Assembly: GCA_032622095.1 (NCBI GenBank)
Contig: CP136062.1
Location: forward strand, 141,378,351 to 141,442,350
Direction of reading: 5' to 3'
Source of the DNA: Siphonodentalium dalli
Taxonomy: Eukaryota; Mollusca; Scaphopoda; Gadilida; Siphonodentaliidae
DNA: 64,000 nucleotides
Below the pieces are notes generated by a model. The model had not been told where the DNA came from and made no database searches. It was given only the letters and a program-made list of their open reading frames with translations. This document shows positions 24,901 through 64,000 of this stretch, one piece after another (position 1 is the first letter of the stretch; each line of letters starts with the position of its first letter). Both the position numbers and the translations under genes were made by a program.

Positions 24901-27900
24901 TAAACTCTTAAGTGGCCACTTTTTGTTCGTTTGAGCTTACTGACAGGTATTAGTTTTAGGATGTAATATTACATTGGCTTATGGTCCTATTGGGCATGTG
25001 TATATATATATATGTATATACATATATATCTATATGTCTGTGCATGTATATGTATATATTGTAGGTTATCAGGTCAATCCAGTTCTTTGATTCAGATGCA
25101 TAGCGGTGTTTTTGTTTCCTTGTGGCCTCCACCTGTTAGAAAATTCTATGCTTTACCATATAGTTCAGTGGGCAAGATACCTTTGACGGAGATACAATAT
25201 TTTCCTAAATAAGTAAAATATATATCTCCTAGAAGTATCTTGCCCACTGAACGCTGAGCTCCCTCCCAGGGTTTCGCACCCACCCCGCTCATGAGGAATA
25301 TCCTACTGGGGATAAAAAATATGGCGAATACTTCACTACGTGTCAGAAATCACGTGACTACACGTGTCATGAACATGACAGAGGATATGTACCATAGAAT
25401 TTCGTACCGTTTTTTCAACTCGGAGAGTTAACCCCTCCTACTTGGGATAATATACCATATAGTTCAGTGGGCAAGATACTTCTAGGAGATATATATTTTA
25501 CTTATTTAGGAAAATATTGTTTTTGTGGATTTGGGATTACGGATAATGCGGGTTGAATTTGCCATGGTGGGGGTATGCTAGCACGCAAGGGCACACCTCT
25601 TATTATGATATGTATGAAGGGTTCTTTGGTGTCAAATTTATTCAGATGGGGTCACCAGGTTAAATAGGGTGGGACCAGGGACATAACTATATGTCTCTAT
25701 AGTAATTCTTAAAATGTCTTCTCAAGAGAGGTTGGACTATTTAGCTTACATATAGTATGGAGGAATCAGGGAGATCCTTTAGTGACTGAGATTCAGATTT
25801 GTTCAAATGAGGTCAACCTGTCAAGAAATGGCGGGGCTATGGGGAGTTAACACTTTTGTGTCTAATAAAATCATTGAAATACCAAATCCATTAAAACATC
25901 TACCTTGGAACCACCTGACTGATTAATCTGACATACATGTATTGTGTTTTGGGTCCATGGATAATTGGGCTTCAAACATGTCTAAATGGTTTTAGAAAAA
26001 GGTGCTTGTGAGATTGGAAATTTCCAACAATTGAGAAAGTTTGAGGTGTCGGTTGTGAAATTCCAACCTAAGACTTGGGAGTCTCGAGCCCGGTCAGGAG
26101 GGGACTTGTTGAGCTGGAGGAGGGGGGTGATCAGTAGTGTACAGTTGGTAATTTCAAGGTGGATTTTCAGCTATCTACATACGTGAAGTCTCTCTAGCCA
26201 CATATCCTGTTTAGATCTATTTCTTTTAAAGTGATTATGAAAAGTTCTGACTGTTGTGGTCTCCAGAGTCCCAGTCTTATCAGTCTTTGCAGTCTGGTGA
26301 GCGACCCCACAGTCATTGACTGTCTTGTTTTTTCGAAAACCGACTATAAAAAATTATATCGCGATATGACTAAATACCGAAACACCATGAAGCCCTAAAA
26401 AAAATCCTCCCTCCCACACTGATCTGAAGAAAAAAAAAATTGCCTTAGAAATAATTAATTAATTTTAGATGGCCTTATATGCAGCTTTGGATGGCCTTAT
26501 ATACAGCTTATTTCTTTTTAGATCAAATCAGAAGTTTGATTATCATGGCTCCAGCGATACTTCAGTCATCACTTCATGTTAATGTCATTTCAAATTCATT
26601 TTTTCTTTGTGACAGTCAGACATAGTCCTGAGGCTGAAGGAAAATGAATGCATGCTTCAGCAGTTTGGCTGTTAATTGAGCTGGAGCATAAATGATTGAT
26701 TTGTTACATTAGACATGCTTGTGTGTGATTTACTGACTGATTAGTTTGACCATGGCTGTCGTGTCAATTAACCCTTCCATAATGGGAGCTTCCTGAATTT
26801 TTGCGAAAACCCTGTGCCAATGCATTCTCTTATATATGGGAGTCGACCATACGTCGCCTCGCATATTTAAGAGAATGCATTGGCCTAACAAATTTTTAAT
26901 TATTTTTTATAATTGTTAAAAAAATGAAGAAAAAAATGGTAAAAAAATTGATGATGAATGTAAGAAATAATGATAAAAAAGTGAAAAGAATTAAAATATA
27001 TGAAAATAAGGTAAATATTGATAAAAAATATAAGAACAAATTATAGAAATGATAAAATTGTCAAAGAATATAAGAAAATAATGATAAAAATTGTTATAGA
27101 ATTTTACGGAAAAATGATTAAAAAAAAATTTAAAATATTAAAAATTGTTAATAATGTAAGAAAATAAATAAGAGAATGCATTGGCACATGGTCTTTAATG
27201 TTGCGCCAGTGCAGCTCCCGTCATGAAATGTGATCGTGAATGTGGTAATAATTATGAATTGTTGCGTATTGTTGAATAAATTAGATGCCAGTGCATTTTA
27301 AGAGAGATAAAAATTATTCTTTTCCTACCTTTCACAGCCAGAGAATGCTATGGGTGTCCTGACATGCATGGAGAAGCTCTGTTTAAATTGGAAGGGCTCA
27401 TCAGACAAACATGAGAAGGGGGATAACTCTAACTCTAACTCGAGGGAAGGGAGTGCTGATGATACTGCAGGAAGCGAATCATGGCGATCCAGACTGAGTG
27501 TGGTAAAATATATATTTTTGTTCACTGAGAAACCTGGAAAATTATCTTATCGTATTTTATAGTACAGTAAAACCTCTCCAAACTGAACACCTGTCGGACC
27601 AGCCTTCTGTTTGGTTTTGAGAGATGTTCGGTTTATAGAAAATCGCACTACGATCGGAATATATTGACGTCGTTGTCGAAGCACAACCAACTCATTATTG
27701 ATTAATTAAAATATATTCAATAAAGTACCAAAATAAATATAAATAACAATAGATAAAACATCATGTTACAAGAATTAAAAACATGACACATTTAGGCATA
27801 ATACATGTATAGATAAGACAGGAAACATGGAAATGATAAATTTCACGGTAATTAAAAACGTCGCATCATTAGTATAGTTGTTTCGTACTCTTGTTTATGT

Positions 27901-30900
27901 GTACCATATTTTATTAATGGTGTTTTGTTCGGCGACTGCTTTGAACCGGATTATAACAACAGATGTCTGATTAGATAACTGAATGCTTATTTAACACATT
28001 GAGTGAACAATGGTGACTTCACAGAGATTACATCACTGACATTTTGTTTATACATCAATCATTGCTCTGAATTGGACTCTTATTTTTATGATCACTGTCC
28101 TGACTAAACACTAATTAGCTAAACGTACACGATAGTAGTGTATTGTTACCAATACAGTTGTATTGTTACCAATACAGTTTTAATCAATCTGTCACAATGA
28201 ATGAGCCGTCACAAAACGGCCACTCAGAGTTTAATGTATAGACCAGAAATTTAAACTTATAAAGAATCTCCAGTCTACACTAGAGCCAAGTATGTCAAAT
28301 CTACTGCAAGTGCGTTCTGTTGGTATCGCTTTATGCGCTCTGATTTTGGAGGTAAAAATTAATGTATTCATTCACTTTTGGACTAAAAAAACCATTCGAT
28401 GTTTGGAATAGAGTTTTCTATTTACAGAGGTAATTTTTAGTGAGAGTGCACTTAGGTGAATTCGGGACCTGACAAATCATTACTTAAAGATACGGATGGC
28501 CTTTGCGATGGGTATTGCTGTTAAAATAGTCACATCCATTAATTTAAAACGGCCATAAGAGAAAGAATAATAATATATATCCAGATTTTGTGCTTATACC
28601 AATAATAAATATCGCATAAAAATCATATTGTCAAGATTGTATGCAGGGTCAGTAAACTAAGGTCATATTAAGTTACATTACAGTAGGTAAAGAGTGTGCG
28701 ATAAACAAAACACTGAACACCGGGGATATCCCACTAATGAACCTTGGTTAAAACTGTACCATTTTGTGTACAACATACCATTATTGCATTATAGCGCTTG
28801 CTAATCCTGGCCACTCAATATTTTGGTGTTGCATGTTGTCACAGTGAATCAATCTCCCCAAAAATCATAACGGTGTTGAGTGTTTTGCTTATTGCACAAC
28901 CTTTATGTTTTGTATGTAAACAAATGATTGGCTCGCACAAGTGTATTTTGTGGATAATATCGTATTCATACTATCATTATACTATAATATGAGTATATTC
29001 TTGAGGAACTTTTCGTAATTTGGTAACTTTTATTTCTAAATTATAACCTACAACCAAGGCCATCCATGCCTTTAAACAATTAGCCTTTCATCACTAAATT
29101 GACTCTCCAATTCAGTTTTACGAGTACAATATGGAATGGTCCATATTTGTATGTAGTGATGCTCAGCTACTATAAGCAGACGACAGGCTGAGCAACACTG
29201 AGGATTAATTTGGACGAGGTTCAGTGAAATGGTTCAACAAACAGCCTAAGTTTAACTTATTAGCTGAACATTCCAATGAATTGATGGAAATCAACTACAG
29301 TAATGCCCTAAATAATCGACTCCTTAACCACAGCAGAATTATGGGTAATTTTTCTGGATTTAGTCGGAAATATGGCTTGTTGCCATTCATCGGAAAGCTC
29401 TCACTGAGAGCTTTTCGATGAATGTCAACATGCCATATTTTCGACTAAATCCTGTGCTGTAGTTAAGGAGTCGATTATTTAGGGCATTACTGTAACTAAT
29501 CCTCACCAAATATTCAGTTATTACGGGGTCAAAGAAAGCAGCATAACAATTTCAAATAATTCTGTTGTGGTTATTTTCTGTATTCCACAGTATAAAACAC
29601 GGTGTTTCCTGATGACGAAATCACTGAAGTCATGCAAGCGAGAGATCAAATCTCTTATAAATGTCCAAGGCATGGTAAGTTGTCAGCTTTTATTTTATTA
29701 TAAATTAAACATTCAGTCCAATTTTGTCTCTTTTTTCTTGATATTGGATCATATATCCTGTTTTACATGATAAAACACCTGACATTCATATTCATGACAA
29801 GAAAGTTCCACCACAATACGTGATTTTGGGAGTTAATCTTATCTTCAACACAATTAGTTCTCTTTGTGCACTTTCTCAGCTGGGCCATGGAAAAGCCTGA
29901 AATTTGTTGATTAAATTATTTGTGATAAAATTGATCTGACATTTGAAAAAGTTTGAAAATTATTAGGTATATCATTCATATCTGCAAGTGTCTATAGTGA
30001 TTAATGTTGTTGGCTGGGGATAACTTGGAAACATCATTTATGAGGACTCATAGAAACAGCTTGTTTATCTACATCTTGGCCACGCTGCTATTATAAGTTA
30101 TTGTGGTCGATTGATGGTAACATGGTGTGACATTGATGATTTGGTGTTTATGTTCAACCATCCGGGACAAGGTTGAACAGAAGCCCCAAACCGTCAATGT
30201 CACGCCATGTTACCGTCAATCCACCACAATAAGTATATGTTCTGCCGACAGTCCTTGTCATTTATAGCAACTTTACATTTATTCCGGAAATATGATTTAT
30301 CAGCCCAATTAAACAAAATCTCATATCTTTGTTCAACGTAAATGACATGAAAAAAGCAGCCCAATAAGAGACGATGGAACAGTTGTCTTGGTTTACGGCT
30401 CGATACGTAAACATGGGACATATTGCGCGGCACTCTGACCAATCAATAATACAGTATATTACTGGAGCCTGCAGGCAGAACATATGCATATAGTATACAT
30501 GTAGATGTGCACTAATATATTCACAAGGCCGATTTTCTTTCTTTGCAGAACACGTCGGTTCAGTACCTCAAGTCATACTATGAGTATCTGAGGGGCAACT
30601 ACCGTAAGGCAATGAAAATGTTGGGTCCAGTCCCTCAAGAACGGATAACAGCATGTGGGGAGTGTCCCAGTGTCATGTACAATAACAATCTCGGGTGTAT
30701 TCACTTCCAAATGAAGAAACCTCACCTCGGAGCATTCTATTTCCGGAGGGCTCTCGTTGAGAATGAAGCAATGGTTAACGAGCATCTGAAAAAAGACACA
30801 GGTAAGATTTTATTTATATTGGATAGAAAATGGTTCTGTTGTCCGTAGAAAACAGATCTTTAGATCAACACCGCCGTAAGGCATGTTGTAAGCTTTTGCT

Positions 30901-33900: not shown

Positions 33901-36900
33901 CTTTGCTCATCTGGAAATGTTGGCTTTTTGGTTCGTCTGGTGTCTGTTCATGTCGTAACTTCAACAGTTGTACTGGGATCTCAATGGGATTTCGTATGGA
34001 TGTTCACTACTATGAGGACATTAAAAAGAGGGTTCCATCGTTTTGTTCCGCTTTTCCATTCTAGAGTTATTCATCTTTGTTCATCTGGAAATGTTGGCTT
34101 TTTGGTCCGTCTGGTGTCTGTTCATGTCGTAACTTCAACAGTTGTGCTGGGATCTCAATGGAATTTGGTATGGATGTTCACTGCTATGAGGACATTCAAT
34201 AGGGAGTTCCATTGTTCTGTTCCGCTTTTCCATTCCAGAGTTATTCATCTTTGTTTATCTGGAAATGTTGGCTGTTTGGTCCATCCGATGTCTGTTCAGC
34301 TCATAACTTGAACAGTAATGCTCGGATCTAAATTAAATTTTGTATGGATGTTCACCACTATGAGGACATTTAATGGCACATTCAAATGTTTGTTTTGGAT
34401 TTTTGTTCTATAGTTATTCATCTTTGTTTATATGAAAATGCTGATTTCTAGGTCCATATGTCTGAGTTTAGCCATCATAAGTTATAGATGTGCCCACACT
34501 AGGCGGTATGCCACGAGGGGGTATGCACCGGACGACAGTCCATCTCTTGTTCAGCATATATATCTAGATGTCAGGGCAATTTAACCAGCTTGATTTGGTA
34601 TGAGCGACATCTCGATCGATGTACCATTCCGATCAATTAACACATGCTGGCCATTTAGATAAGAAATGAGAATTTGTTAACGCTCACTGAGTTAAGCAAA
34701 TATGAAGCTATGGGCACTCATTGCTCATACTGATTCCGTGTCTCCTTAACTCTGACATTAATGTATGCACACGCGCTTTATTTATGGACGGGGTGGGGGG
34801 TGTTCACATCAAACCCCATTGCCATGTCAGTGGTAAACTCATCCGTAATAACCTTATTTTGACGTTTTGAATAAACACAGGTCTTTATTATTCATCATAG
34901 TATCAAGATATAGTTGATATATGGAAGCGATAGATTATGTCTATAGTTATGCTTCCTAGAACTTTAGTGTTTGCTGGGATAAACATTGCCTGACTAAAAA
35001 ATTATCTCCCTTGGAAACTCTCTTCCATGAAGAGAATTATTTAACCAATAGTAATTCCCGGTTAGATATACTTGAGAGCAGCTACTTTTGCTAGACAATC
35101 ATTGCTGGATAGAAAATTATCTCCCTTGAGAAAACTCTCTTCCACGAATAGATAGCATTCGTCAATATAGTGCTTCCCAGTTACAGATACCTGCTTCCCA
35201 GTTACAGATACCTGGTTGCAGCTACTTTTGCTAGACAAACATTGTATATTTTGCTTTTGGATCGATCGATTGGTTGTTTAAAAAGTTGGAATCAATTTTC
35301 TGGATGAAATGGTACATGACAAAAAGCGACATAGCACTCAATTTCATACATTGGAGCTGGGCCATGTACCAGAATACTAACCTAAATCACGCTCTACCTG
35401 TTTGGAACTCTAAAATAATTCTATGTTTGCAAATTTGGTATTGAAAACATCAAATGACTTTAAGTTTACAATAAATGTTCCGGTTCCGATTCTCAAAATG
35501 TATTAAATAGGAAGAAATAATTTGCTGTGGAACAAACTGCATCTGTGCTGCACAATTTGACAAAGCCTGCAATTCATAAAACCTTTCTTAATTACCCCCA
35601 ACAGTCAATAACTAGCCTGTTTGTTAGTTTTATAAGTTTTCCAGTATGAGGTATATGGCTTGTGGAAAATAAAAAATAAAAATAAAACCATCCCTCCCTC
35701 ATCGTTTTGAAAAAACATGGAATCATACAAATTATCTGATTGCATTTTTTTTTTATTTCTTTAGAACAATGAAGCTGATAGACAGATTGACCGACGACTC
35801 GATGTGATTCAGGGTTCAGTGGGATCTGGTCTCCACAGAAAGCTTATTCTAGGACCTCCTGAGAAAGGCCAGAGAGAAATGTATGTTTACCAGTTTATTT
35901 AAGAATGTATTCAGGTTCCAGGGCAATTTGTTTAAAACCTAGTTGACTCTTTATTTAGATTCTATTGTATAAAACAAACATGATTGGAACAAACATTGCT
36001 ATGTGAGACGTTATTTTGATTAATATTGAATTTTCTATGCAATTATTTCATATATTGATGTTTTTGAGGAACACCAAACATTTTTCAATAACAAAATGTT
36101 ATAATGTGGTATTTATAGGTCTAGTTATATTTCATATTTGGTTTTCAAAATCTGTTCAACAGAACAAAGCAGGAAACGATAAGATTATATTTTTTATGTT
36201 GTTTAGTAACTGCTTGGTCTGGAACACTGAATGCATCTTTTGTGAGTAGATTTCTGATAATCAAATATTATACTATTTCGAGAGGTTTTCTAGTATCTAT
36301 ATAAACCAAATTCAAGGATTTTCAATGCCATGCAACACATTTTCTTGTCACCAAATATTAAGTGCAATGTCAGAATTTGTACAGAAATTATGGTATGCAA
36401 TACATGCATGCCATCTACTGAAAGTGTCGATTAGGCATCCACTTTACTTTACTTTAATTTACCCACACATGTGGGTCTCACAAAACAACTGTGGAAGTTT
36501 TTTTCATTTTTAGCTCAACTTTACTTTGTAAAGTTTGAGCTATTGCCATGGCTTGGTATCCGTCGCGTGTGTGTGTGTGCATGTGTGTGTGTGCGTGATT
36601 CGTCAACAATTTCCTTTAGCACGGTGTACAGGTCGTACCTTTGGTCAGATCATTATGAAATTTGTCATGGGCGTTGACATTGACATGTAGATGGGAACGA
36701 GTCATCTTGGGGTCATTCGGCAAAAAAACATGGCCGCCAGCGGCCATCTTGGATTTCAAAATTCAATCCATTAGCGCAGACTGCAGGCCGGAATGGTTGT
36801 CTGATCATCATGAAATTTGTGGAAGTTAATATTGACATGTAGATGGGAACGATTCATTTTGGGGTCATTCGGCCATAAAACATGGCCACCGGTAGCCATC

Positions 36901-39900
36901 TTGGATTTTTCCCTTTGCATGACTAAATCCTTTGACACAGGCTACAGGTCGTATCTTTGGTCGGAGCATCGTGAAATTTGTCATGGATGTTAACATAGAC
37001 ATGTAAATGGGAACGAGTCATTTTGGGCTCATTCGGCAAAAAACATTGCTGCCAGTGGCCATCTTGGATTTCAAAATTCAATCCATTATCGTGGGCTACA
37101 GGCCGTACTGTTTGTCCGATCATCATGAAATTTGTCATTTATGTGATTGCATGACTAAATTCTTTGGCACGAGCTACAGGTCGTACCTTTGATCGGATCA
37201 TCATGAAATTTATCATGAATGTTAATATTGACATGTTGATGGGAACGAGTCATTTTGGGGTCATTCTGCCATAAAACATTGCCACCAGCAGCCATCTTGG
37301 ATTTTACTCTTTGCATGACTAAATCCTTTGGCACGCCCTACAGTCCACTTCCCTCATCCGATCATCACCAAACTTCATATTAATCTTGATATTGATCTAC
37401 TAGATGGAAGCTATCAAATGTTTTTGAATTTCATTGGAAAACATAGCCATCAGCAAACATCTTGGATTTTACTTTATATATCTCTTCATGTTGATAATCT
37501 AGTATTACTTAGACCTTTCAACTTTCCGCATTCCTAATAGCTCCATTGACCGTAACACATGAATTCCCTTTCCAAGTTGAGCTACAGTGTCATTGACACT
37601 TTCATTAATAAATGTCATTTTACTATTTCGCTGTTCTTTTTATGATACGTCTGACTTCATATGGGAGTCATGTGGCACCTTTCTCATTTTTGTGACAGTG
37701 CAAATCAAAGCTAATACTTGATGTTAATACTTTAAGTTTGAACTTTGAGTCAACTTTGACACAGTTTGCATTTTGCAGAGTACCTGCCTGCTACAACATG
37801 ATTGATCCAATCTGTGTACTTAGAATTTTGTAGTCATGACCCTTGGAATGTTCATTTCCCCATTTTATGATTTTATTATTCTTCCAACATGCTAATTATG
37901 TTAAATATTGAACATAAGAAGATTTCAAAATTTTACCTATCTAAAAATGAACATGTGAACATCTGCAAACAGCACCATGCACGAATTCATCTGATTGGCA
38001 GAGTACACAGTGAAACCTGGGAGCGTAGGAAAGCAGACAAATGAGAACACCAGATACGTTGCTTGTTTATTAAAATTGTCTTATGTTGGGGAGTGTTACT
38101 GTAAATCCGGAAAATGAAGCGCAAAAATAAATTATCTGCCTTTTTTCAAGGACTTGAACGTCCCCTCATCGAATTCAAGGCAATTCCTTGAATCCAAGGC
38201 CCAGTAGGAACCCTGTATTTAAAACCACTTCATTTTCCGTAATACTTTCCTTTTTGGCCCATTAAACATGAATACCTGTGTTCTCAGGGAATTAATATTG
38301 GAAATTGGATGAGGGAGCTCGAGGGAGTCTTTAAATTTTTTTACTTTCCAAGAATTCTAGAAATTAATGGATGTATGGTAAAAAAAAAATCTTACGATTT
38401 TCCAGTCAATCTATCCTGTGATGCCTTTTAAAGATACGGGTGGCCTTGAGCATGGGTATAGCTATTAAAATAGTCACATCAGCTAAAACCACCATAAACA
38501 GAAAGAATATTATAATATAGACAAGTTGTTCTTATACCAATCATAAATATCGCATATATTGCATGTTATTGTCATGTTTGTACACTTTGTTATGTAAACA
38601 GACATCAAAAATGTTACAAAACCATTTGTTTATAGACAAGCACTTTGAAGTTTGAACTACCGGATCGTCCCATGAAAATGTTCCGTTGCACTGTAGTATT
38701 TTCTCCTAACCTATATATCCTATATATGGTAATACATACCAAATAAGGAATTTATAATCAGTAGTATTGTGAGTTGTAAGTTGTAGACGCACCAAATTAG
38801 GGGTTTTACAACAGACGTATAATGTGCGCGAATCTAAATAAGGAAACGACGCAATATTGTGACTGCTTATAAGCAATCCACTGCGCTTATTGCAAGAAAC
38901 TGAAGAACACTCGAGTTGTATTTTCTCGGACAAAAAGCGTGTTTTGTGAATAATATCGCATTCATATCATCATTTATGCTATTCTATTAGTATATTCTAG
39001 AGGAAATTATCATAATTTGATAAATGATATTTCTAAATTATATCCTGCAACGAAGGCCGTCCCTTTAATATGGAGCCTGGGAAGTGACATGTGAAAAAAA
39101 ATTATCTCGTTTCATAAAAAAAATTTGCACAATCAATGCATTTTTAGCTCAACATTAAAGTAATACTTTGTTATGTTTGAGATATTTCCATGGGATGGCC
39201 TCCATCGTCCATCCATCAACAATTTCCTTTGGCTGACCCTACAGGTCACATATGGCTCATCCGATCATCATGATCTTCAGGGTGACCTCTAAATGGGAGA
39301 CATCGATTTTTTCCGAAATTCGATAAAAAACATGGCCGCCAGCAGCCATTTTGGATTTCAAATTTGAATCCATCGGCACAGCCTGCAGCTCGCATTTATT
39401 GGAGAAATGTTTTGAAAATTTACAGGCATGTTTAGGATCACCTCAAAATGGGAGCCATCAAATTTGAGCCATTTTCAATGAAAAACACGATTCCATGACT
39501 AAATCCTTGGGCACACCCTACAGACAACACCCTTCGTCCAATTGTCACCAAACTTCATATGGATCTTCTGGGTGACCATAAATGGGATCCATTTTTTCAG
39601 AATTTTTTTCAAAAACAAGGCCGCCAGTTGCCATCTTGGATTTTACTCTTTGAATGACTAAATCCTTCAGCCATCTTGCATTTCACATTTGAATACATCT
39701 GGACACACTGCAGCTCCCATTTATTGGAGAAATGTTTGAGAAGAAAATATTTTCATATACACAATACAATCCCTTTACTGAAACTTTTGACTTTCCTTCT
39801 TGATCATTCTGTTGAATGCACAGCATAAAATTATTAACACCTACCAAGTTGAGCTACACTGTCATTGACACTTTCGTTTACTGAGGTTGCAGTCATAATC

Positions 39901-42900: not shown

Positions 42901-45900
42901 CTCGGATATCCGCAGTTTCGTCCATGCTTAATCCGAATTGCTACGGTCGGGGGCAAATGCCACGCGACAGCGTACCTCTTGTTTAAAATTTGGGTTCTAT
43001 GAACTTCCATCCTGCCCAAGTTTCAATTTGGCACCATGGGGGAATGCCAGCACCCGAAGCTAACCTCTTTTCTGCTCTTTTCAGGTGCTCTGTTTTAGCT
43101 GCTTTTGCATACGTTGCTCTCAGTCTGGATGACTATATCACTGCTCTCCACCAAGCAGAAGCGTTACTAAAGCAGCCACGCCTCTCAGGTGCCCAACGGT
43201 GAGTATTATTAGGGTGGGTACAATGGAGAATATTCCAATTGCTTATTTCCGAAAAAAAAATCAAAATTGTTTCATGGTCAGAAAGCTTACGAAATTATCG
43301 ACATTTATATCAATAAAAAATAGCTACCATTAGAACCGTACTGTTTTATTATTCAGATAATAGGGAGTAATTCTTTGAGCAGTAATTTTTTTGATGTCAT
43401 CAAAGATATTCTGTTTAAAGATGGTCTGTCTCTTCCTATAACAAGTTTGATATAGTTTCAGGGGTATAAAATAATAAATATGAATTGTAGACCCCTGTCG
43501 GGGAAATGCTTCTATCAATTAATATTGATTTTATTTTATATTTTCTGGTATAATATACATGCTATCAATTTGAGACATTTTACGGCTCGCGTTCGTACAG
43601 AGCATGGCATACAGGATAACTGTCTAAAAATAGTAACGAAATATTGTCCCAATTGATTATCCCATTACATAAGAAAATAGCAATATGAAATCAATTTTAA
43701 TTGATAGAATCATTTCCGGACAGGGGTCTTCGACTCATATTTATTATTTTATACTCCCGGAAAGAAAATAAAACGTATTTAGGAAGAGATAGATCATCTT
43801 TAATAGAAACTTTTGTTACATTTATAAAAATTCAATGAATTTAAAATAAATATGCTTTAATATACTTGATTCCAGTGAATAAAGTAATTTTAAATATAAT
43901 TTCAAATATCTATAATATGGCAAGAAATTAGACACATTGATCTTCTTGATTAGCATTTTTTTTCGTATATATATATATTTAAAGAGAAATAAATCATTAG
44001 TGATAAGAGTGTAATAGATTTGAGAGTGTACTACTGTTGTTGTAGCTGTTAGCCAGAAACAGCCAGAGCCTTATTATGTTGTCCCTATATTCTTGGAAAA
44101 TTCAGTTTTACTCTATGTGATTTTATTTGTAGGTACCTGGGGCATTTATATAAAGCAGAAGCATTAATGTCCCTTGATAGGATAGCTGATGCTGTGCAAC
44201 ATTTGAATCCAGACAACATCCATGATATCAGTACAAATCCACCAGAATCAAGGACAGACCAAGGTATGTTGGATTTGTTATGTGATATGATTGATTAGCT
44301 GTGAACATAGATGAAACCTGAAACAAATTATTCACTAAAAGAAAGAAATTTGACTTGTGAATATACCTGTGAACGTACCGAGTCAACCACTCTGGGAGAT
44401 GGGCAATAACTAAGTGCTGACATTTGTGCTCCAATCCCTTTGTGATATATTCTTCATTTCCATTAAAATACATTTAACCTACTCACCCCTTCCTAACATT
44501 TTGCTCCATGTTCCAACATCAAGGATATGATATTATACATGCTAGGAAATTTTACTAATATGTGAAGGGGAAATAATGAAGTACGATTTTTTTTAGACTG
44601 ATCGGAAGCTGAAAATAGTCTACTCATTCCTCATAAACAAAGGCCCAAACAATTGCACAATCATAGTCGACATAAGAAAGCCTGAAATTGAACTTGAGCT
44701 GTATGTGTGATGGTACTTGAAACACATACCAAAATTCATGCCATTCAGTTGTGTAACGTGAACCCATTTCTCATGTACAGATGGCCATAACTCTTGTTCT
44801 GAATTCAACTTAAGGCCAAATAAAAAAAAAATCCCTTTCTCAGGCACCTTCCTCGTCACTGAAATTTTCTTTTAAAAAGCCCTGTCAAACATTTTTAGTC
44901 TAGTTTTTTTCCAAAACTTGACTTATAGTTTGATGGTGGGCGGCGGACGGGCGGCGGACGGACGGCGGACGGACGGGCGGCCTGTTTTGCTTATAACTCA
45001 ACCGTTTATTTGGTGTGTGAGTACATATCCATGCACGTAAGCTGCAGACAAAAATTCGGGTTCGTCCGCACATTTATTACAGAGTTATGGCCCTTTGCCA
45101 TTTTTCACTGATTTTAGGCTCGTTAGCGCGATAACTTCAACAAATTTGGTATATATGTGTCTCCCAAGAATATCTTGGATGAGTTCGAAAACCAGCCTGG
45201 TCCGATAAAATTTGATAGAGTTATGGCCCTTAATTAGTCATTTTTCACGAATTTTCAGCTCGTTAGCGCGATAACTTCAACAAACGTTATCCGATTTGAT
45301 TGATATTTGGTATATAGGTGTCTCCCAAGAAAATCTCGGACGAGTTCGAAAACCGGCCTGGTCCGATAAAATTTGATAGAGTTATGGCCCTTAATTAGTC
45401 ATTTTTCACGAATTTTCAGCTCGTTAGCGCGATAACTTCAACAAACGTTATCCGATTTGATTGAAATTTGGTATATAGGTGTCTCCCAAGAATATCTCGG
45501 ACGAGTTCGAAAACCGGCAGGTCCAATAAAATTTGATAGAGTTATGGCCCTTAATTAGTCATTTTTTTGCAAATTTTCAGCTCGTTAGCGCGATAATTTA
45601 ACAAACATCATCTTATTTGATTGAAATTTTGATATATAGGTGTCTCCCAAGAATACCTCGGACGAGTTAGAAAACCGGCCCGGTCCGATAAAATTTGATA
45701 GAGTTATGTTTCTTAAGTAGTCATTTTGTACGAATTTTGAGCTCGTTAGCGCGATAACTTCAACATAAGTCATCCGATTCAACTAAAATTTCGTATATAA
45801 GTGTCTTCCAATAATATCCTGGACGAGTTCGAAAACCAGCCTGGCCCGATAATATTTTATAGAGTTATGGCCCTTAATTAGTCATTTTTCGTGAATTTTT

Positions 45901-48900
45901 AGCTCGTTAGCGCTATAACTTCAACAAACGTCCTCCGATTTGTTTAAAATTTGGAATAGATATACTTGCCAAGAATATTTCGGACGAGTTCGAAAACCAG
46001 CCTGGCCCGATAAAATTTGATGGAGTTATGGCCCTTAATTAGTCATTTTTCGATTTTACCTATTAATTATTCTACCGATACTGATGCACACCATTTGGCG
46101 GTAAGCCACCGAAAACCAGACACAGCATCTCTGATGCCACCTCTTGTTTTCAATATCTCTTAGAAATATTGGACTTGAACAAGGAAAATGAGTTACTTTC
46201 TTGAGTATGTTTTCCAGATTTTGAGAAGAAATGAAAATAAATATCCTCCCTCCCTCGTGTCAAAATTGAGATATTGTATTTGAATGGCCTTACCGGCATC
46301 TGAGGGTAGCTAACCAACAAATTTTTTGAAAGTAAAGACAGATGGAGGCATGTAATACAGTATTGTCCCTAACATTTTGGTAGAGTGGAGGTGAAATATG
46401 ACAAGCTGTATATTCACCACTATGATTTTTTATGAGATCATTAATAATTTCAGCCCTTCCATGACTGGAGCTTCATGAAAATTTGTGAAAACCTTATGCC
46501 AATGCATTCTCTTATATATGCAAGTCTCCCATAATGAGCCTCGCATATATAAGAGAATAAATTGGCCTAACAATATTTACCTTGACCTTGTAAGCTAGTG
46601 CGTTCTTTTACATATGTGACATTTTTTCATTAATGATCATACATCAGACTGCTTAAATAGGATATTCTGAATATATTTAATTCATTGGTTTTCATGTTAT
46701 ATACTTGCCAGACTCCATTTATATCATTACAATGTTTTGTACTTATAGAGAAGTTTGATAAACCGGAAAAGACAGACAAAGATAAAAATGACAAAGAGGC
46801 ATTCGAGCAAAGTGAAATCAAAGGTAAATCATAAGTCTTATTGCAGTAATGTCCTAAATAATCAACTCCTTAACCACAGCAGAATTATGGGTAATTTTTC
46901 AGGATTTTTCAGGAAATATGGCTTGTTGCCATTCATCGGAAAGCTCTCACTGAGAGCTATTTCCTACAAAGACACGTTCCACACTGAACTATGTGGTTAT
47001 TCGCTTTGCGTGTATGAATAAACGTATAGGGAGAACCTTGCCTCTAGGTTACCAAACGGTACAAAATTTCTTCGGTACGGAAATTATAACTTCCGGTTAT
47101 ACCGGAAGTTGCGAACCGGAAGTTATAATATTTGGTAACCGGATGTACCTTTTGTTTCTGGCCACGTGATCTTATCTATAAATTGGAATTTACAGGTAAG
47201 AATCAGTCTTTTTCTCGGTAGTGAGGACGATGAGCGAGTTGAGTGTGCGGGGTGGGCTGGGAGGGCCCTATGAGTTCAGTGTGTAAGTGTCTTATGTAGG
47301 AAATATCTATTATACTTTATGAAAATAGGATTTCCGATGAATGGCAACACGCCATATTTCCGACTAAATCCTGGATAATTACCCATAAATTCTGCTGTGC
47401 TTAAGGAGTCGATTATTTAGGGCATTACTGTATGTAACCACTTTTGTCCTAGGATGGCAGTGGGATAGTTGAAAATATTTGATCTTACCAAGTATTTACT
47501 CCAGAACTGAACTTAATTTTGGAATGTTTGAATATCTCTTGTCATTAAATAGACCATATGCTGGCCAACAGCAAAGTGTTAACATAAGGGCTTAGTAACC
47601 TTTCCTGGTAATTTAAATAAGATAGACATATTATTAATTTTAGGTCACATATGAAGAATTAGTACCTATTATAAATGTGATTGATTAAACTGTTTATTTG
47701 CGCATGTATAGTCTGGTCGAATAAAGGTTTGACCTAGAATAAATTTGGACTAAATTGGTTTGTATACCATTTTGAAGAGAAATATATCCTCTATAACATA
47801 TCCAAAATCCACTAAAATCCGCTTTGAGCAATTTTTATACGCCCGTTTGAAAAAACGGCCGTATTATAGTATTGGTCTGTCCGTCCGGGCGTCCGTCCGT
47901 TAACCTTGTTTCCGGATGATAACTTTAGTTAGAGTGAACCAAATTTAATAAAATTTGGTATGTGGGTTTATTAGCCGAAAAGTAAGTTCAATTTCGAATT
48001 TGGGTTCAGCCCGCCAATGTTCACCGGAGTTATGCCCCTTTTTCGACTCAGAAAATTCAGTTTTTCTTATGTTTTTTGGTTTCCGGATGATAACTTGATT
48101 TTGGAATGTTTATACGCAAAACCCGTTTTTTTGTGGATTACATATATCAAAATACAGCTCAAGTCCGAATTTCGTTTTAATCCGATAATTTATGGCCGCT
48201 TTTTTGACATAATTTGACTTAGAAAATCCCTGAAATTTGTTGTCCGGATGATAACTTTAGTTAGAGTGAACCGATTTCAATCAAATTTGGTATATGGGTT
48301 TATTAGGAGATGTTCCATCCGCCAATTTTCCCCAGAGAGGGCGTATTTTGCACGCCCAGCGTAGCTCTTTTTGTAATTCAAGATGGCTGCCATTTCCGTT
48401 AAATCAGTTCTACGCAATTATAGTGAGAAAATCTTGTCATATGTATACAGTGGTATACATTTCTGTGAAGCTAAGACATAACCCCACCGTTGTATTCCAA
48501 AATTGGAACTCCCCGTCATAAATGGCTGCCAAAATGGCGGCCGGAAATGGACATTTTTACGTTTTTTACGTTTTTCTACTGTTTGGAACTGGTTGAGAAT
48601 TTTGACTTTATTTTGTATTTAACATCTTAACTGACCATTGGATCAAAGAAATATGCTATTCATGGGCTTCCAACCCCTTCCGATCGCTAAACAATTCGAT
48701 TTTACAGAACGCAGTATAACATAGCACAAAATACCACCATTGGGATTCTAGTCATATTTCATCAAGAAATTGGAAGAGCTGTGCAATGTAAGTAATGCTT
48801 TCTACTTTTTATGGATATTCCAACTCAATGTTACAAAAATCGTCACTTTGGATCAAAATGGCTTCCAAAATGGCGGCCAAAATATGGAAAATTCTCAATA

Positions 48901-51900
48901 TTGTCCCAGTGTGCCATGCAACTGCTTATAAGTTGTTGTTGATGCACACAGTTGACTATTCTGTCTTATATACATTGAACACCAATATATATGATGCACA
49001 TTGGTTAATTGTTACCATTGAAACCACTAAAATCACCAGAATTATTCATTTTTTTCTGTCACAAAGTTTGCATCAAAATCGGCAAAAAATCACTGTTCAG
49101 GTTTGAAACATTTTTTGGAAATGGAAATTTCTTTGGTATCAGCGATGTTTATTATTTTGATATGTGCTAACTGTGTCACACTGATGTGTTTTACACAATA
49201 TTGCTCAAGATGGCTTGCAAAATGGCAACCAAATTTGGTAAAATGTTGATTTGTCACATATATTCCGAACATTATTCACTGCTGTTCCGAAAATGTAGCA
49301 GATTGTGACTCACTTGGTTATTAAAAATGCTACTTAGTCAACTAAATGTGATATTCTGGTTGTCACAGAACCTTAATAGGCATGGCAGTTCATTTAAGGG
49401 GTGCAGTATGGTTTTTGCCGAAAATTTCTTTTGGGATTCTGTCCATGTTTTTTTTAACTGGAATGGGCAGAAAGTTGAAAGGGAACTGAGAGGGATCATA
49501 GTATGTGGCTACTCTGGCCCATTGTAATCACCATTGATCAACTTAATAGATTGTGTATGTCTGTTGAATGTATGGTTATAGGTGAGGTGAGTGTATACGG
49601 GGAGTTATTGTATTCATGAATGATATGAATAGTTGTACAATGTATGACTATATGGTCATGTATGGGCTGCCACGTTGAGTTGTATATGTATATAAGGAGT
49701 AGATTATGGTCATGACCGTCATGTGTGAGGTGAACATGTATGCAGGGAGTTGTTGTCTGGCCATTGAAGTGGTGTATGTGTATAGCATTGTCTATCTTTC
49801 TGTTGTGTATGTATATGTGGAGTGCCTGTGTGGTCATGGGTGGGATGTGCATGTGTACATTGGGTGGGTGTATATGTATACACGCGTTTGCTGTATGATA
49901 ATGGATGGGGTGTATGGTTAAATATGGAGTGGTTGTATGGTTATGGGCAATGTGTATATGTGTACATGGAATGACTGCAGGGTCAATGTTGTTGAAGTGT
50001 ATATGCATACCTGGGGTACAGTTTGATGGTCACTGGCGGGCTTGTGTATATAGATCGTGACATCATGGTCATGGGTGGGATGTACATGTTTATCTGTTGT
50101 GGCTGTATTGTCACTGCTGTGTAGCGGTATACAGTGAATAGCTGAATACTCGTGGGTGTGGTGTGTAAGAATACAGCGAGTGGCTGAATTATCATGGTTG
50201 AGGTATAGTTTTGCAAGTCTGAAGTGTACGAATGGCCGTGTGTGTGGGGTATAGGCATATCTAGAAGGACTGTGTGGTAATTGATAAGGTATATATACAC
50301 CTGGAGTGACTATGGTCATAGGTTAACCAATACAGACAACCAACCAATACAGGTAAATATAGGCTAACAAATATATGTAAGTGGGTATCTGACAAGGTGA
50401 CACATTTGTCCGCGTCAACGAAAATCACACCTAGCCCTCCAGAAGGACAATAACAAGTCAGAATGGAGCACTGGCTGACGGACCATAAGGCCTTTCCGTT
50501 TGTCAGTATAAGCATAGTGACATAAATAATGGCTTATATCATATCCTATCCTATTCCCCACACAATGATAGTGGTACATAAATGTATGGATGTCAAAAGA
50601 AAGGGGAGGATATCTGTTAGGCATACTACAGAATATTCAAGGCTACATATATGATTACCAAGGTCCCTTATTTCTCGCAGACAAATTGATCCCGGTTCTA
50701 ATGACATGAATGTTGAGTTGGAAGCTGGGTCCTGGAGCAGTTTAATGGAATTTTGAAAATAGTTTTGGAACGTACCCCACAAAAACAAGATTTTATTTTA
50801 TGCCAAACGTAGAGTTTAGACATTTTTGGAAATTACTCCCAATGAGTTTAAATGATGCCAAAATGTTTGGATAAGATCAACATCAGTTGCAGATCGCTGA
50901 CTATGTGCCATACTAAGCAAATGTCACTTTACGTTTCGACTCATTACCTGAAAGACGCGAGCCCTTGTATATCTAGCATGGCTATATTGCCACGATGTGG
51001 CCAATATGTATATATGGAGTGCCAGTGTGGCAAAATTAATGGTGGGTGAATTGGTATACAGGGAGTGACTGTATGATCACGAGTGTGGTTTATGAGTATA
51101 CAGCGAGAGGCTGAATTGTCATGGTGATGTCTATATGCACGTTTGGAGTGTATGAATGGCCGTGTGTGCGGTGCGGGACATTGGTATATCTAGAAGGACT
51201 GTAACGCCATTGGTGAGGTTTATATGTAGACTATATATACATGTAGTGACTCTATGGTTTTGGGTTGGGTGTATATGTATATTTTGAGTGGATATATGAC
51301 CATGGGTGTCGCAAATATATATGCAGGGAGTGACGTTATGACCCCTGGTGAGATATATGTATACAAGAAGTAATATACAAAATGTATGCTCATGAATGTG
51401 GCGATAATATATATATCGAGAGAGACTATATTGTCATCGTTTGTATGTATATCTTGAGTGCCTATATGGCCATGCATGTGGCAAATATATACATGTACAC
51501 TGAGTGACTATTACCAATTGTGAGGCGAATATGTATACAGGATGTTACTGTATGTTCATGAATGTAGTGAATAGGTATACATGTCGTGACTATATGGTCA
51601 TGGTTGAGGGGTAGGAGTATACCTGGTGTGCCTGCATGTTTACTCATGGCTATATGGCCATGTGTTGGGTGTATGGGCATATCCATGTGTGGCTGTGTAG
51701 TCATAGGTGAGGTGTGTGTGTATAAAGCGAGTGACATACATGTATGTTCATTTATGTGGTGTTCATGTATATATGGAGTGACTGCATGGTCATGTGTAAG
51801 TTGCACTGGTGTACCTTTGGGTGACTATCGATTTCCTATCGCTATTACTCAAGAATATGTTAACCGATAGAGAGATCATATCAGAGTGTCTCTTAATGGT

Positions 51901-54900
51901 GTTTGGTATGCAATACGAATGAAACGGTTTTCATGAAAATAGTATATAAGTTAATAAATTTTTATACTAATGGGCCAGAATAGCCACACAATATGATCCC
52001 TCTCAGTTCCGTTTCAACGTTCTGTCCATTTCCGTTCAAAGACAGACAGAATCCCAAAAGAAGTTTTCGGCAAACATTCATGATACTGCATCCCTTAAAC
52101 TGATTTATCATGCCTCATAATGTACTGGGACAACCAGAATATGACATTTAGTTATCAGTTGATTAAGTAGCATCTTTAATAACCAAGTGAGTCACAATTT
52201 GCAACCTTTTCGGAACAGCTTGTAATAATATTCGGAATAAATATGACAAATCAATATTTGGTTGCCATTTTGCAAGCCATCTTGAGTAATTTTTTCTAAA
52301 ACACCTCAGTGTCACACATTTAAGACAGATCAAAAATAAAAATCACATTTGATACCAAAGATAGTTCCATTTTACTTGAAAAAATGTTATTATTTTCCCG
52401 ATTTTTATGCCAAGTTTGTGATAACAAAAAATCCCATAATTCTGGTAATTTCAGGGGTTAAAATGGTAAAAATTAATAAAGGTGCATCATAAATGTTAGT
52501 ATTCAATATATATAAGACAGAATAGTCAATTTTATTCATCAACCACAACTTATAAGCAGTTGCACGGCACGCTGGTGCAATATTTACCAGTTTTCATATT
52601 GTGGCCGCCATTTTGGCAGCCATTGTGAGCCAAAGTGACAATTTTGATACCATTGAGTCGGAATATTCATAAGAAATAGAATGCATCACTTACATTACAC
52701 AGTCCTGTTCATATTTGATGAAATATGACTAGAATTCCAAATTGTGATTGTTTTGTGAAATGTTATACCGCGTTCTGTAAACTCGATTTTTTGAATGATC
52801 GGAAGGGGTGGGGACCCAACTTATGGCTTAATTTATTTCCCCAATGGTCTGTTAACCTGGAAAATACAAAATAGAGTCACAATTCTCACCAGTTCCAAAC
52901 TGCAGAAACTTATCTTAAAGATATCAGTAAAAAAACGTAACATGTTCCACTTCCGGTCGCCATCTTGGGCGCCATCTTGGGCGGTGAGTTCCAATTTTGG
53001 CATAAGAAGGTAGCGTTATGTCTTAGCTTCACAAAAATGTATACTTATGTATACATATGACACGATGTTATCACTATAATTGCATCAAATTGCAACAAAC
53101 TGACTTAACGGTAAATGGCAGCCATATTGGATGCCATCTTGAATTACAAAAAATGCTCAAAGCGGATTTTAGCGGATTTTGGATATGTTATAGAGGAGAT
53201 CTTCCTCTTCATAATGATATATAAACCAATTTAGTCCGAATTTATTCTAGGTTGACCAGACTAGTAGCCAAACATCTGTTTGTTAAGAATGTTTCTGTTT
53301 GATTGTCTCCCAAGCTTCACCATGGAAGTTATATGTACATCAACTTTCTATTTAAAAAGATATATATTCCAACAAATCCCTGGTATCTTCATCCATCATC
53401 CTAATATGATTAAAGGGACCCAAAGTACTCACAATGGGTAAATGTGCAAAAGTTTGTAAAAACATCACCACTAGGAAGAACGTGGAGAAATAGATAAACT
53501 TTTGTTCTTATGTTCATTATTGATAGAATTGTAATAACAATATTTTGCATGCTGAAACCTGTTACAGTGATTTACAGTGATTTGTCAACAAACATTGCTA
53601 ATAAGTCTTGATTAAACTTTTGTATCTTATTCGAATACCGGTAATTGGACTTTTATTTGTAATTGCACTGTAACAGTAATGTTTTCATAACATTGGTTTT
53701 GATATGTGAAATCTCATTTATTGGAGAGTTATTAATAATGAAAATAAGAACAAAATTTCATGTACTTGTTGATGATAGTTGTTTAACAGACTTTTATACA
53801 ATTTATATGTTATTTTTCATGAACCAACTTCGAAGGCCTTGAGCCCCTTTAAACCATAAAATTTCCAACTTCAATAATTAATGCCACTCTCTTTCTTTGT
53901 TCCCTATACAGTTTTGTATCCTTGGTCGCCAAGAGATTTGCAGAAAGCAAGGGCAATCATGCAATATAACTTGGCTACAGCTCATGCCATCCGTGGAGAA
54001 TATGACAAGGCCATGGCCAATCTTGGAGAAGTAAGTTTTAAACCTAGCATTATAAGGATGTCCGTTTGAAGTATGTGGTGCTTCTTTATAATTAAAGGTA
54101 CTCAATCTGATTCGATGGTCCCCATATAATCAGATAACAACAACAACAACATTTTAGAAATGCCACTTCAGTTATCAGAATCGATTAATTGTCCAAAAAT
54201 AATGCTAACCTCTGTCAACTATAGTATAAAATTGCCCGAAATGTGTTATTTATCAACATGTTGTTCAATGAAATTTGGCCTTATTATCAGCAGAAAGCCT
54301 CTTGATTTTAGATTTATGCATCTTCATCTGCAATTTGGTCCGAGACCATTGGCTCGTCGACTGTTTACTGGGCCACTAATAATTCTCTATGGTGAAAAAT
54401 AATAGTTTTCAAAAATCGATATCTAATAACTCTGAGCTTTGATGGTGGGTTCCTCGACTCGAACCAAATATTTTTTAACCCGAATCCAAATAAATAGTAA
54501 TTGAGGGGCGCTTAATCGGTTATTCATCTTTAAGATTATTATTAGGAAGTGAATAAAATAAATTGAGAATAGATAGATTGGTCAACTCAAGATGCTTATG
54601 AACTCAGAGCATTCTCACTACTGTTTTGTCATTAATGACATATTGTTCAGGTATGTGAAACTGATAAGTTAGTACTCAGGTGCTATGCAAATGAGGGAAT
54701 GTAGCATTCTACTAACATTGGGAAAACTCAAATAGACCATCCCACTCCATAGAAATCATCATCTGAACTATGCTTAATTGTAAATATTTACATCTCGATT
54801 CAGGACGCAACAATCGGCGATAAAAAACTAACGCAAAGATATTGCCATCGAGAGTCATTGCATTTAATTAATATATAAGAATGATGTTGTGTGTTGTAAA

Positions 54901-62219: not shown

Positions 62220-64000
62220 CTATAATTTGGCTTGTGTTTTCAACAGTTGGCTGAGCCTCTGAGCCAGCATCATGTTGCCCTTCAATTTTAGCTTTCCTGC
62301 AAAAAATGCTTTCTGTGGGTCGAGTTTGCCAGCAGCTAATGACATCATGTCGTCATCGGATACAACCACAGTACATTCGGCTTTCTTTCCCTTTGGCTTG
62401 CCTGGATATATGCTCCTGTTTCCTGCCTTCATGTCGATTGTCCACTCTTTTGTCTCGCTCCCATCCTTAGTGATGTTATACATGATAACTGCATTTACTT
62501 TCCGTGCTACATCAGGGTCACTGTCTGCTCGTCGTAGCATTTCTTCGAATACCATGTCGCTTTTGAACTCCGGGGTTGAAACTTCACTGGCTTGGGCTGT
62601 TGTTTCTTCAGCACTTTGGAATAAATCTATGTATGCTCCAGACAAGCAGACATTGCCGTTTTCAACAACTGTACATGTAAAATGAATTCTGTTTCCTTCT
62701 TTCCACATATCTGTCTGCAAAGTTTGTCCGGGTATTACAGGTTTGGAGAAACGAACTTTTATCGCTCTGAACAGGGATACATCGTTATTTGCATACTTGC
62801 GAAGAACATGACGTGCAGCGTAACCGAAGGAGCATAAACCATGAAGAATTGGAGTTTCAAATCCACCCATGGCAGCAAAGGATGGGTCAATATGAAGTGG
62901 ATTTCTGTCGCCACTGAGTCTATATATGGCTGCTTGATTCACCGTGGTTTTCTGTTGAATGGAATAATCTGGTTTCCGAGCAGGATGACTTACAGGCTCT
63001 TTTGCTAAAGTAGATTTCCTCGGCCCACCAAAATTTCCAGCACCTACTACAAAAGTGGCGAACTGGTTAAAAGCTACTTTCTTTTTATTTTCATTGAATG
63101 TTTCAATGTTCATAACAATAACACAGCCAGAGCCTTTGTCGAGAACATCTACTATTTGAATTTGATTTACTAGCTTGGCCTCTGGCTGAAGTGGTTCATA
63201 TAACTCCAGATACTGTTCTCCATGCAGCACTTTTGTTAAATCAATCGAAAGTCCAGGAATTCCTTCAGACATTACTTGCATCATTCCATTGAAGGCTGGA
63301 ATAACTCCAAATGTAGGAAAAACACTAAAGTCAGACGCCCCTTCAAATAAGAATTTCAAATAATCAGGGTCCGTTGTCTCCACACCAATCCCCAATGCAT
63401 AAAGCATAGCATCCTTCATCTCGTAAGTGAAGTTAATAGAAGATGATTTCGCCGACTTGATAAGATTAAGGTTAATACCATCTGATGACGCGGACACTTT
63501 GTTTGGTGCTATATTACCTGCATCTTCACTTTGTACAGCAGTCACTATTTGCATTGATGTATCGTTAATAACAGCTGGGCTTGTTGACTGAGTAAAATCA
63601 CATACTTTACTCCAGCTATCTCGGACATCCTCTGCACTTCCAGCTCTGTTCTGATTTCTCACTACAGTCCCCTGTGTTCGTTCCCATCGAAGTTTTCCTA
63701 CCCAGCCTCCACCAGTTTCAAACAATCCACCATTCTCTTCGCAAGTCTCATGGCACAAATACACCACAACCGGAGTTACATATTCTGGCTTCAGCGCGCT
63801 ATGAACATCAGGGGGCATAACTGATTCTGTCATTCTTGACCCAGCCATTGGGGCTACTGTGTTGCAGTAGATATTAGATTTTGAACCTTCAACTGATAGT
63901 GTGTTTGCTAGTCCAAAGAGACCAAGCTTTGCAGCGGAATAATTTGCCTGACCGAAGTTCCCATAGATACCAGCTGCTGATGATGTCATGATGACTCTGC
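62220..64000 (-). CDS. HSD17B4: Peroxisomal multifunctional enzyme type 2 / 17-beta-hydroxysteroid dehydrogenase 4 (3' part, runs off the window)
   Basis: This enzyme carries out the hydration and D-3-hydroxyacyl-CoA dehydrogenation steps of peroxisomal beta-oxidation (very-long-chain and branched acyl-CoA, bile-acid-type side chains). Residues are counted from the Met at 63989, which is internal, because in-frame codons for Arg-Val-Ile precede it to the window edge. The SDR tail at 1-110 carries the catalytic TSSA serine region and Y17-x3-K21, and ends with GGLFETGGGWVGKLRWERT. A linker and the hydratase-2 N-terminal half follow at 180-330. The hydratase-2 motif at 356-372 has Y-R-L-S-G-D361-R-N-P-L-H366, so the D/H catalytic pair is intact. 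The SCP2-like sterol-carrier domain spans about 477-585. The C-terminus Ala-Lys-Leu is a PTS1 peroxisomal signal. The first roughly 147 residues (Rossmann NAD site) lie outside the window. No stop, frameshift or intron interrupts 1.78 kb. Convergent with CNOT10. Confidence 0.95.
   Translation of the reverse strand, partial: RVIMTSSAAGIYGNFGQANYSAAKLGLFGLANTLSVEGSKSNIYCNTVAPMAGSRMTESVMPPDVHSALKPEYVTPVVVYLCHETCEENGGLFETGGGWVGKLRWERTQGTVVRNQNRAGSAEDVRDSWSKVCDFTQSTSPAVINDTSMQIVTAVQSEDAGNIAPNKVSASSDGINLNLIKSAKSSSINFTYEMKDAMLYALGIGVETTDPDYLKFLFEGASDFSVFPTFGVIPAFNGMMQVMSEGIPGLSIDLTKVLHGEQYLELYEPLQPEAKLVNQIQIVDVLDKGSGCVIVMNIETFNENKKKVAFNQFATFVVGAGNFGGPRKSTLAKEPVSHPARKPDYSIQQKTTVNQAAIYRLSGDRNPLHIDPSFAAMGGFETPILHGLCSFGYAARHVLRKYANNDVSLFRAIKVRFSKPVIPGQTLQTDMWKEGNRIHFTCTVVENGNVCLSGAYIDLFQSAEETTAQASEVSTPEFKSDMVFEEMLRRADSDPDVARKVNAVIMYNITKDGSETKEWTIDMKAGNRSIYPGKPKGKKAECTVVVSDDDMMSLAAGKLDPQKAFFAGKLKLKGNMMLAQRLSQLLKTQAKL

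Follow-up and report, generated by a model that had tools for sequence, protein, structure and literature searches.

A foldback element without recognisable genes in a CNOT10 intron of Siphonodentalium dalli: its copies, its target site and putative YY1 doublets in its arms

Several described systems can be set beside the 5.6-kb foldback element analysed here, which lies in an intron of CNOT10 in Siphonodentalium dalli (assembly GCA_032622095.1, contig CP136062.1). Coordinates refer to the window, the whole stretch of 64,000 nucleotides that was analysed. Tc1/mariner elements duplicate a TA target, CACTA/EnSpm elements have CACTA/G termini, and En/Spm carries subterminal 12-bp motifs. As far as the parts of the published reports used here go, Mutator-type foldbacks such as Tetris generate target duplications of 8–10 bp (PMC4079207), ISL2EU duplicates AT, and PIF/Harbinger elements of the PHIS superfamily duplicate a 3-bp TWA (PMC4482050). 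The consensus of the transcription factor YY1 is given as CGCCATNTT; YY1 binds a site in the terminal repeat of ProtoRAG, loss of the site or depletion of YY1 lowers recombination, and YY1 also represses ProtoRAG's own transcription (PMC7481187). A second, repressive precedent is provided by mariner silencers bound by YY1 (PMC4777549).

The window copy is a young member, with no recognisable genes, of a multicopy cut-and-paste family. Judged from sequence, it is probably a non-autonomous foldback transposon with terminal inverted repeats that depends on a transposase supplied in trans, and the AARATGGC doublets in its arms are putative binding sites for host YY1.

Copies, ends and target site

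The first-pass annotation had described a foldback mobile element with collinear inverted arms, and both self-alignment and the genome copies bear this out. In inverted orientation the inner arms (48376–49545 and 51947–53132, about 1.2 kb each) align over 1,218 columns with 77.5% identity, and the outer arms (47732–47839 and 53145–53252) over 108 columns with 90.7%. Its boundaries had been placed at 47711 and 53261, where GTCTGGTC and GACCAGAC adjoin TA. Each of these positions is off by no more than 2 bp, the true unit with the TA included being 47709–53263. The parts of the element are:

47709–53263: family A foldback element, TAGTCTGG...CCAGACTA, delimited by ends common to the copies and a 3-bp duplication on both sides
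47706–47708: left target duplication GTA, 3 bp (flank comparison)
53264–53266: right target duplication GTA, 3 bp (flank comparison)
47709–47839, plus strand: outer left terminal repeat, common to families A, B and C (self-alignment, family comparison)
about 47841–48367: nested 527-bp insert, separate from the element itself, with edges accurate to about 9 bp (copy comparison)
48376–49545, plus strand: left arm, inner part (self-alignment)
49546–51946: central region with weak 42-bp periodicity (Tandem Repeats Finder, consensus periodicity)
51947–53132, minus strand: right arm, inner part (self-alignment)
53145–53263, minus strand: outer right terminal repeat, with 22 bp missing between two GACC words relative to other copies

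The search for further copies with the same ends, proposed along with the annotation, yielded many, with fixed TAGT...ACTA termini. Among the best-scored candidates there are at least 39 other genome places for the left arm and at least 39 for the right arm, and copies of this family, here called A, occur on many chromosomes. Their left ends read TAGTCTGGTCGAATAAA and their right ends ...TTTATCGACCAGACTA, with a unit length of about 5.06 kb. Twenty of the 39 left-arm places were fetched, and since these were chosen as the most similar the sample is biased towards young copies. The window copy differs from the consensus by 1.56% and the other sampled A copies by 1.17–4.58%; 20 of the 21 copies in total stay below 2.6%. 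The arms of the A consensus themselves are about 20% apart (80% identity over 1,339 columns) and those of the related family B about 15%, so the divergence of the arms is much older than the insertions.

Family B (about 4.35 kb, 8 elements fetched) aligns with A along its whole length. Family C (mostly about 2.18 kb, 12 fetched) has only the outer ~130 bp in common with A, its interior being different. The 19-base left end of A type occurs 123 times in the genome and the 16-base end of B and C type 2,426 times, with 0 occurrences of either reversed control. The ends common to A, B and C suggest one transposase acting in trans. Encoded elsewhere, such an enzyme would recognise the outer ~130 bp that the three families share and would cut and paste all of them.

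An exact 3-bp duplication was found outside the TA in 30 of 33 elements (13 A, 8 B and 12 C were compared) against 0–2 of 33 in shifted controls; the exceptions are L037, L011 and L028, and the longest exact duplication at the junctions of the 33 copies is 3 bp. TA had been demanded in choosing B and C elements but not A, and the outer 3 bp for none. This count leaves out eight A copies of the 20 that were fetched: in six no right end was found in the locus, and two (L016, L026) have altered left ends. As L029/L030 and L017/L022 are segmental duplicates, the count represents about 31 independent elements. Shared flanks at two places on one chromosome were also seen for L010/L016, L011/L012 and L029/L030, likely through segmental duplication.

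Empty sites agree with this. A paralogue of the L038 site without the element, window 19453–19572, lacks five bases, and two empty versions of the L013 site, L015 and window 17565–17628, lack five bases and have one base changed. A TA duplication alone predicts no missing bases, so the five fit 3 bp plus TA. This evidence comes from two insertion sites; L045, a third candidate, gave an ambiguous picture. The TA target assumed in the first-pass annotation thus has to be replaced: TA is the element's own end, and the duplication of 3 bp lies outside it, as the 30 of 33 copies and the two empty sites indicate. Together with the TAGT...ACTA ends, the corrected duplication offers a handle for finding the missing transposase.

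Long inverted arms around a middle part, present in many copies, define the foldback structural class of the element, and fixed ends, target duplication and empty sites testify to its mobility. An ordinary local inverted duplication, with no transposon involved, would explain that the arms form an inverted repeat, and only that. It is refuted by the genome copies, at least 39 other places per arm with fixed ends and empty sites, and retains practically no credibility.

The 527-bp insert interrupts the left arm at a spot where none of the other 39 listed arm places has one; an insert with similar ends is present at a different position in A copy L025. A minisatellite heart with a 50-bp unit had been proposed for the centre. 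A very weak periodicity does exist there, its best period being 42 bp and not 50 bp (0.33 matches against a mean of 0.27 in the consensus centre), and Tandem Repeats Finder (score 50) reported only a 26-bp run of period 12 on the element, in the right arm.

No coding content was found in the unit, in agreement with its first description. None of its six frames of at least 100 amino acids (aa) has a Pfam match above the cut-off (one lies below threshold, E-value 0.0074), and Rfam and tRNA scans of 47000–54000 were empty. The family C consensus holds short frames only, the longest 111 aa, and a separate family E, described below, has frames no longer than 142 aa within the 4.1 kb of it that were examined (neither tested against Pfam). 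The autonomous partner that the annotation had hoped for was not found in partial searches, and the following negatives count against a transposase supplied in trans. No autonomous copy turned up, the longest stop-to-stop frame listed for 20 fetched B and C elements whose two ends are intact being 199 aa (not tested against Pfam). No recognisable coding piece was obtained from 20 sampled unpaired ends (501-bp inward pieces, taken from 20 of about 39 such ends counted by eye among 100 listed places). Of these pieces, 17 are similar to A, B or C, several only partly (L055, L060, L065); the other three (L059, L061, L062) did not look coding either, and the first 345 bases of the L061 piece are a common repeat. 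Genome places listed for DDE_Tnp_4, DDE_3 and Transposase_21 never fell inside listed elements in a by-eye comparison of partial lists, nor did the best 150 of 910 DDE_Tnp_4 candidates fall inside the A, B or C elements listed on C1. Two DDE_Tnp_4 places are near neighbours: C9:188250971 is about 6.4 kb away from A copy L021, and a doublet lies at about 3.2 kb from C1:4871118.

Separately, twelve Transposase_21 places are clustered at C7:18.8–24.0 Mb of the host genome, each with one TAG, and elsewhere in the host there are ten 909-residue open frames for this domain with exactly equal scores. In L059 a tandem array adjoins a TAGTCTGGTCGATAAA end.

AARATGGC doublets and host YY1

The ATGGC blocks of the arms proved to be doublets of the form AARATGGC-N4-AARATGGC, which point inward in both arms:

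48519–48538, plus strand: YY1-like doublet, 1 mismatch
48855–48874, plus strand: YY1-like doublet
49207–49226, plus strand: YY1-like doublet
52264–52283, minus strand: YY1-like doublet
52607–52626, minus strand: YY1-like doublet, 1 mismatch
52959–52978, minus strand: YY1-like doublet
53121–53140, minus strand: YY1-like doublet, 1 mismatch

The A consensus contains 12 AARATGGC words (shuffle mean 0.51, maximum 4) and the B consensus 18 (shuffle mean 0.38, maximum 3). Genome-wide the exact doublet occurs 25,580 times and its reversed pattern 0 times. When the gap was left free between 0 and 30 bp, 26,631 doublets were found against 125 for the control, and 87 of the first 100 listed have a gap of exactly 4 bp. 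Arrangement was assessed on 100 listed doublets, which cover C1 from 0.16 to 13.9 Mb. Neighbouring pairs within 8 kb converge in 24 cases and diverge in 1, half of the same-strand spacings (14 of 28) measure 335–354 bp, and all 26 doublets situated up to 1.6 kb inside a listed end are oriented inward. With the limit set at 5.2 kb inside a listed end, 9 of the 100 are assigned to A, B or C and 30 to E, 39 together; random places gave 0.84 on average and 5 at most (500 trials).

Family E, a separate family of 4.9 kb, was found nested in A copy L020, where its target duplication is ACC (3 bp) and the A consensus represents the empty site. Its ends, TAGTCCAGG, have 4,954 genome matches at no more than one mismatch (control 0). 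Neighbours no more than 8 kb apart among 100 listed E ends form 31 convergent and 2 divergent pairs, and 18 of the 31 converging pairs are spaced 4.86–5.08 kb. E also has TAGT...ACTA ends but differs from A beyond the first few bases, and similarity to A, B and C at an E-value below 0.01 is restricted to the surroundings of the doublets. Of 17 listed E ends, 14 have an exact doublet no more than 1.6 kb away. Family F is represented by one copy of 2.5 kb nested in L019. Its ends are TAGTGGGGCGG and a tandem array occupies its centre; its duplication reads ATA on the assumption that one base of the host A copy has changed, and is weaker evidence for that reason. Doublets are thus borne by the arms of A, B and E, and F has one exact and one imperfect doublet. 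Among 12 listed junctions of insertions nested in A, B and C copies only the F insert bears doublets, so that the doublet is not a general property of repeats here; the E insert in L020 runs past the end of the fetched locus.

The doublet word equals the YY1 consensus CGCCATNTT (PMC7481187), and CGCCATNTT / GCCATCTTG is present in the terminal repeats of the element as a sequence match. Motif columns agree at 97–98% in four arm versions against 85–88% elsewhere, a conservation matched by random 8-mer sets in 3 to 22 of 5,000 draws; this comparison covers A and B only, their four consensus arms being a small set. In the host genome two exons for YY1 zinc fingers lie next to each other, with 88% and 95% identity to a fragment of human YY1. 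We base the YY1 reading on the motif match, on orientation and conservation of the motif, and on the YY1 fingers that the host genome contains. The inward doublets would be YY1 binding sites kept for a benefit to the element, YY1 either gathering the ends for excision or setting the transcription or chromatin state. That the TAGT...ACTA families kept, or converged on, tandem YY1 doublets (12 bp apart, often in repeats of about 345 bp, inward in both arms) as a host-factor module is a tentative proposal that we consider less likely than not.

Several observations weigh against the YY1 reading. Sixty-one of the 100 sampled doublets have no link to any listed end. In family C there are just 3 AARATGGC words (shuffle mean 0.17, maximum 2), and none of them forms an exact doublet; of the 14 listed A, B or C ends only 4 have an exact doublet at up to 1.6 kb, a low number since C is poor in doublets. 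Single words are also slightly enriched in the remainder of the window, with 14 occurrences outside the element (shuffle mean 5.8, maximum 13). The 88% YY1-finger exon has a TAG inside the matched stretch.

The doublets might instead bind an accessory protein encoded by the element, in the manner of the En/Spm subterminal motifs. Their subterminal position, their 12-bp distance and their inversion between the arms would suit such a protein. We consider this unlikely, as there is no known copy with coding capacity, the word coincides with the YY1 consensus CGCCATNTT (PMC7481187), and family E carries doublets although its ends are unlike those of A past the first bases, so different transposases are likely. 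A further alternative sees in the doublets functionless ancestral sequence passed on among related transposons. The doublet-bearing families have TAGT...ACTA ends and 3-bp duplications and may therefore descend from one ancestor; yet the doublets persist where E and A are otherwise unalignable at an E-value below 0.01, and in A and B the motif columns are better conserved than the remainder. Inheritance without function is likewise improbable in our estimate.

Under the tentative module proposal, the roughly 25,000 exact doublets would be unusually dense YY1 arrays with YY1 as a cofactor that brings ends together or acts on chromatin, and could possibly rewire the targets of YY1. If the doublets are genuine YY1 sites, a host architectural factor would have been recruited by families that otherwise share little, widening the case of ProtoRAG and YY1 from one transposon to thousands of copies, and the purpose of the foldback arms would become directly testable. 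Transposition would then have spread thousands of potential YY1 sites, some of them intronic as here.

Within the window the doublet is specific to the element. The exact string ATGGCGGCC occurs three times, always inside it; the stated recurrence of the blocks in other elements of the window is not supported for the exact string, and no doublet was found outside the element even at up to two mismatches. Local tandem repeats lie at 36612–37343, with single AARATGGC words, and at 45081–46052, with one. Inverted repeats of 170 bp at 20570–20739 and 25310–25479, 98% identical and spanning 4.9 kb, probably belong to another terminal-repeat element.

The CNOT10 setting and possible pairing of the arms

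The location in a CNOT10 intron, as annotated, is confirmed by CNOT10-matching exons on both sides:

43099–43198, plus strand: upstream CNOT10 exon (PDB 8fy3_B, E-value 9.7e-05; 8fy4_B, E-value 7.9e-05, query 43101–43196)
53934–54030, plus strand: downstream CNOT10 exon (PDB 8fy3_B, E-value 0.0094)

The call of the downstream exon rests on gene order too, because designed TPR proteins score higher. A stronger CNOT10 exon match (E-value 4.5e-18) lies within 30546–30845. Long open frames of the window are found on the minus strand at 62223–63998, which by eye we take to resemble a short-chain dehydrogenase of HSD17B4 type, and at 333–815.

Transcribed in the CNOT10 pre-mRNA, the arms may form a kilobase duplex, which is energetically possible according to the folding model: the predicted arm duplex reaches -1257 kcal/mol, whereas five shuffled pairs gave values between -334 and -358. 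The arms might then matter by forming kilobase double-stranded RNA that is edited or silenced. Substitutions among the copies lend this some support, the per-base change rate being 1.7% at consensus-paired sites and 3.0% at unpaired ones, and double changes being more numerous than expected, with 9 at paired sites (4.65 expected) and 4 at unpaired ones (2.83 expected). At positions that differ between the arms, 124 of 221 changes in all copies (56%, 38% expected) go towards the other arm. However, only 5 of 13 double changes restore the pair, and the excess towards the other arm comes mostly from L009 and L028, without which it falls to 70 of 151 (46%). Retained ancestral bases can account for both the bias and the rate difference. 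Beyond the outer 200 columns the A arms resemble each other (83% identity) no more than they resemble the arms of B (84–87%), the two arms of B being closer to each other (90%). Arm-to-arm conversion or retained ancestral bases can explain the bias as well as selection for pairing does. We regard a role through double-stranded RNA as very unlikely; pairing in the CNOT10 pre-mRNA would be a by-product more than the reason for keeping the arms.

In the left arm of L009, 16 sites match the opposite arm between A reference positions 1076 and 1251, by possible conversion or a rearranged arm, and L028 looks like an older lineage.

Comparison with known systems

Several known groups were considered and set aside. 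Tc1/mariner is ruled out by the 30 of 33 copies in which 3 bp beyond the TA are duplicated, and CACTA/EnSpm by the termini, TAGTC...GACTA here. The AT duplication of ISL2EU does not occur, a 3-bp duplication being found in its place, and the 8–10 bp of Mutator-type foldbacks exceed the maximum of 3 bp at the junctions of 33 copies. A narrow literature search found no description of a clan of TAGT...ACTA elements bearing doublets.

PIF/Harbinger resembles the element in its 3-bp AT-rich duplication (PMC4482050) but differs in that TWA accounts for only 6 of the 30 duplications here (TTA 4, TAA 2); no transposase was found for the element among the genome places listed. A structural likeness exists to Tetris of Drosophila virilis, a non-coding foldback with tandem repeats for which no autonomous copy was found and whose outer terminal repeats are common to a different non-coding element, the miniature inverted-repeat transposable element DAIBAM. 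Its tandem repeats lie inside the terminal repeats, whereas the element here has a weak central array, and the portion of the Tetris report used describes no YY1-like sites (PMC4079207). The mariner with YY1 silencers is likewise a transposon with repeated YY1 sites, which are bound in gel shifts; there the sites are part of the terminal stretch of the gene for the transposase (PMC4777549). In ProtoRAG of lancelet, as here, the terminal inverted repeats contain the YY1 consensus, GCCATCTTG (PMC7481187). The element differs from ProtoRAG in that it has no coding content, duplicates 3 bp of target and bears several 12-bp doublets in each arm.

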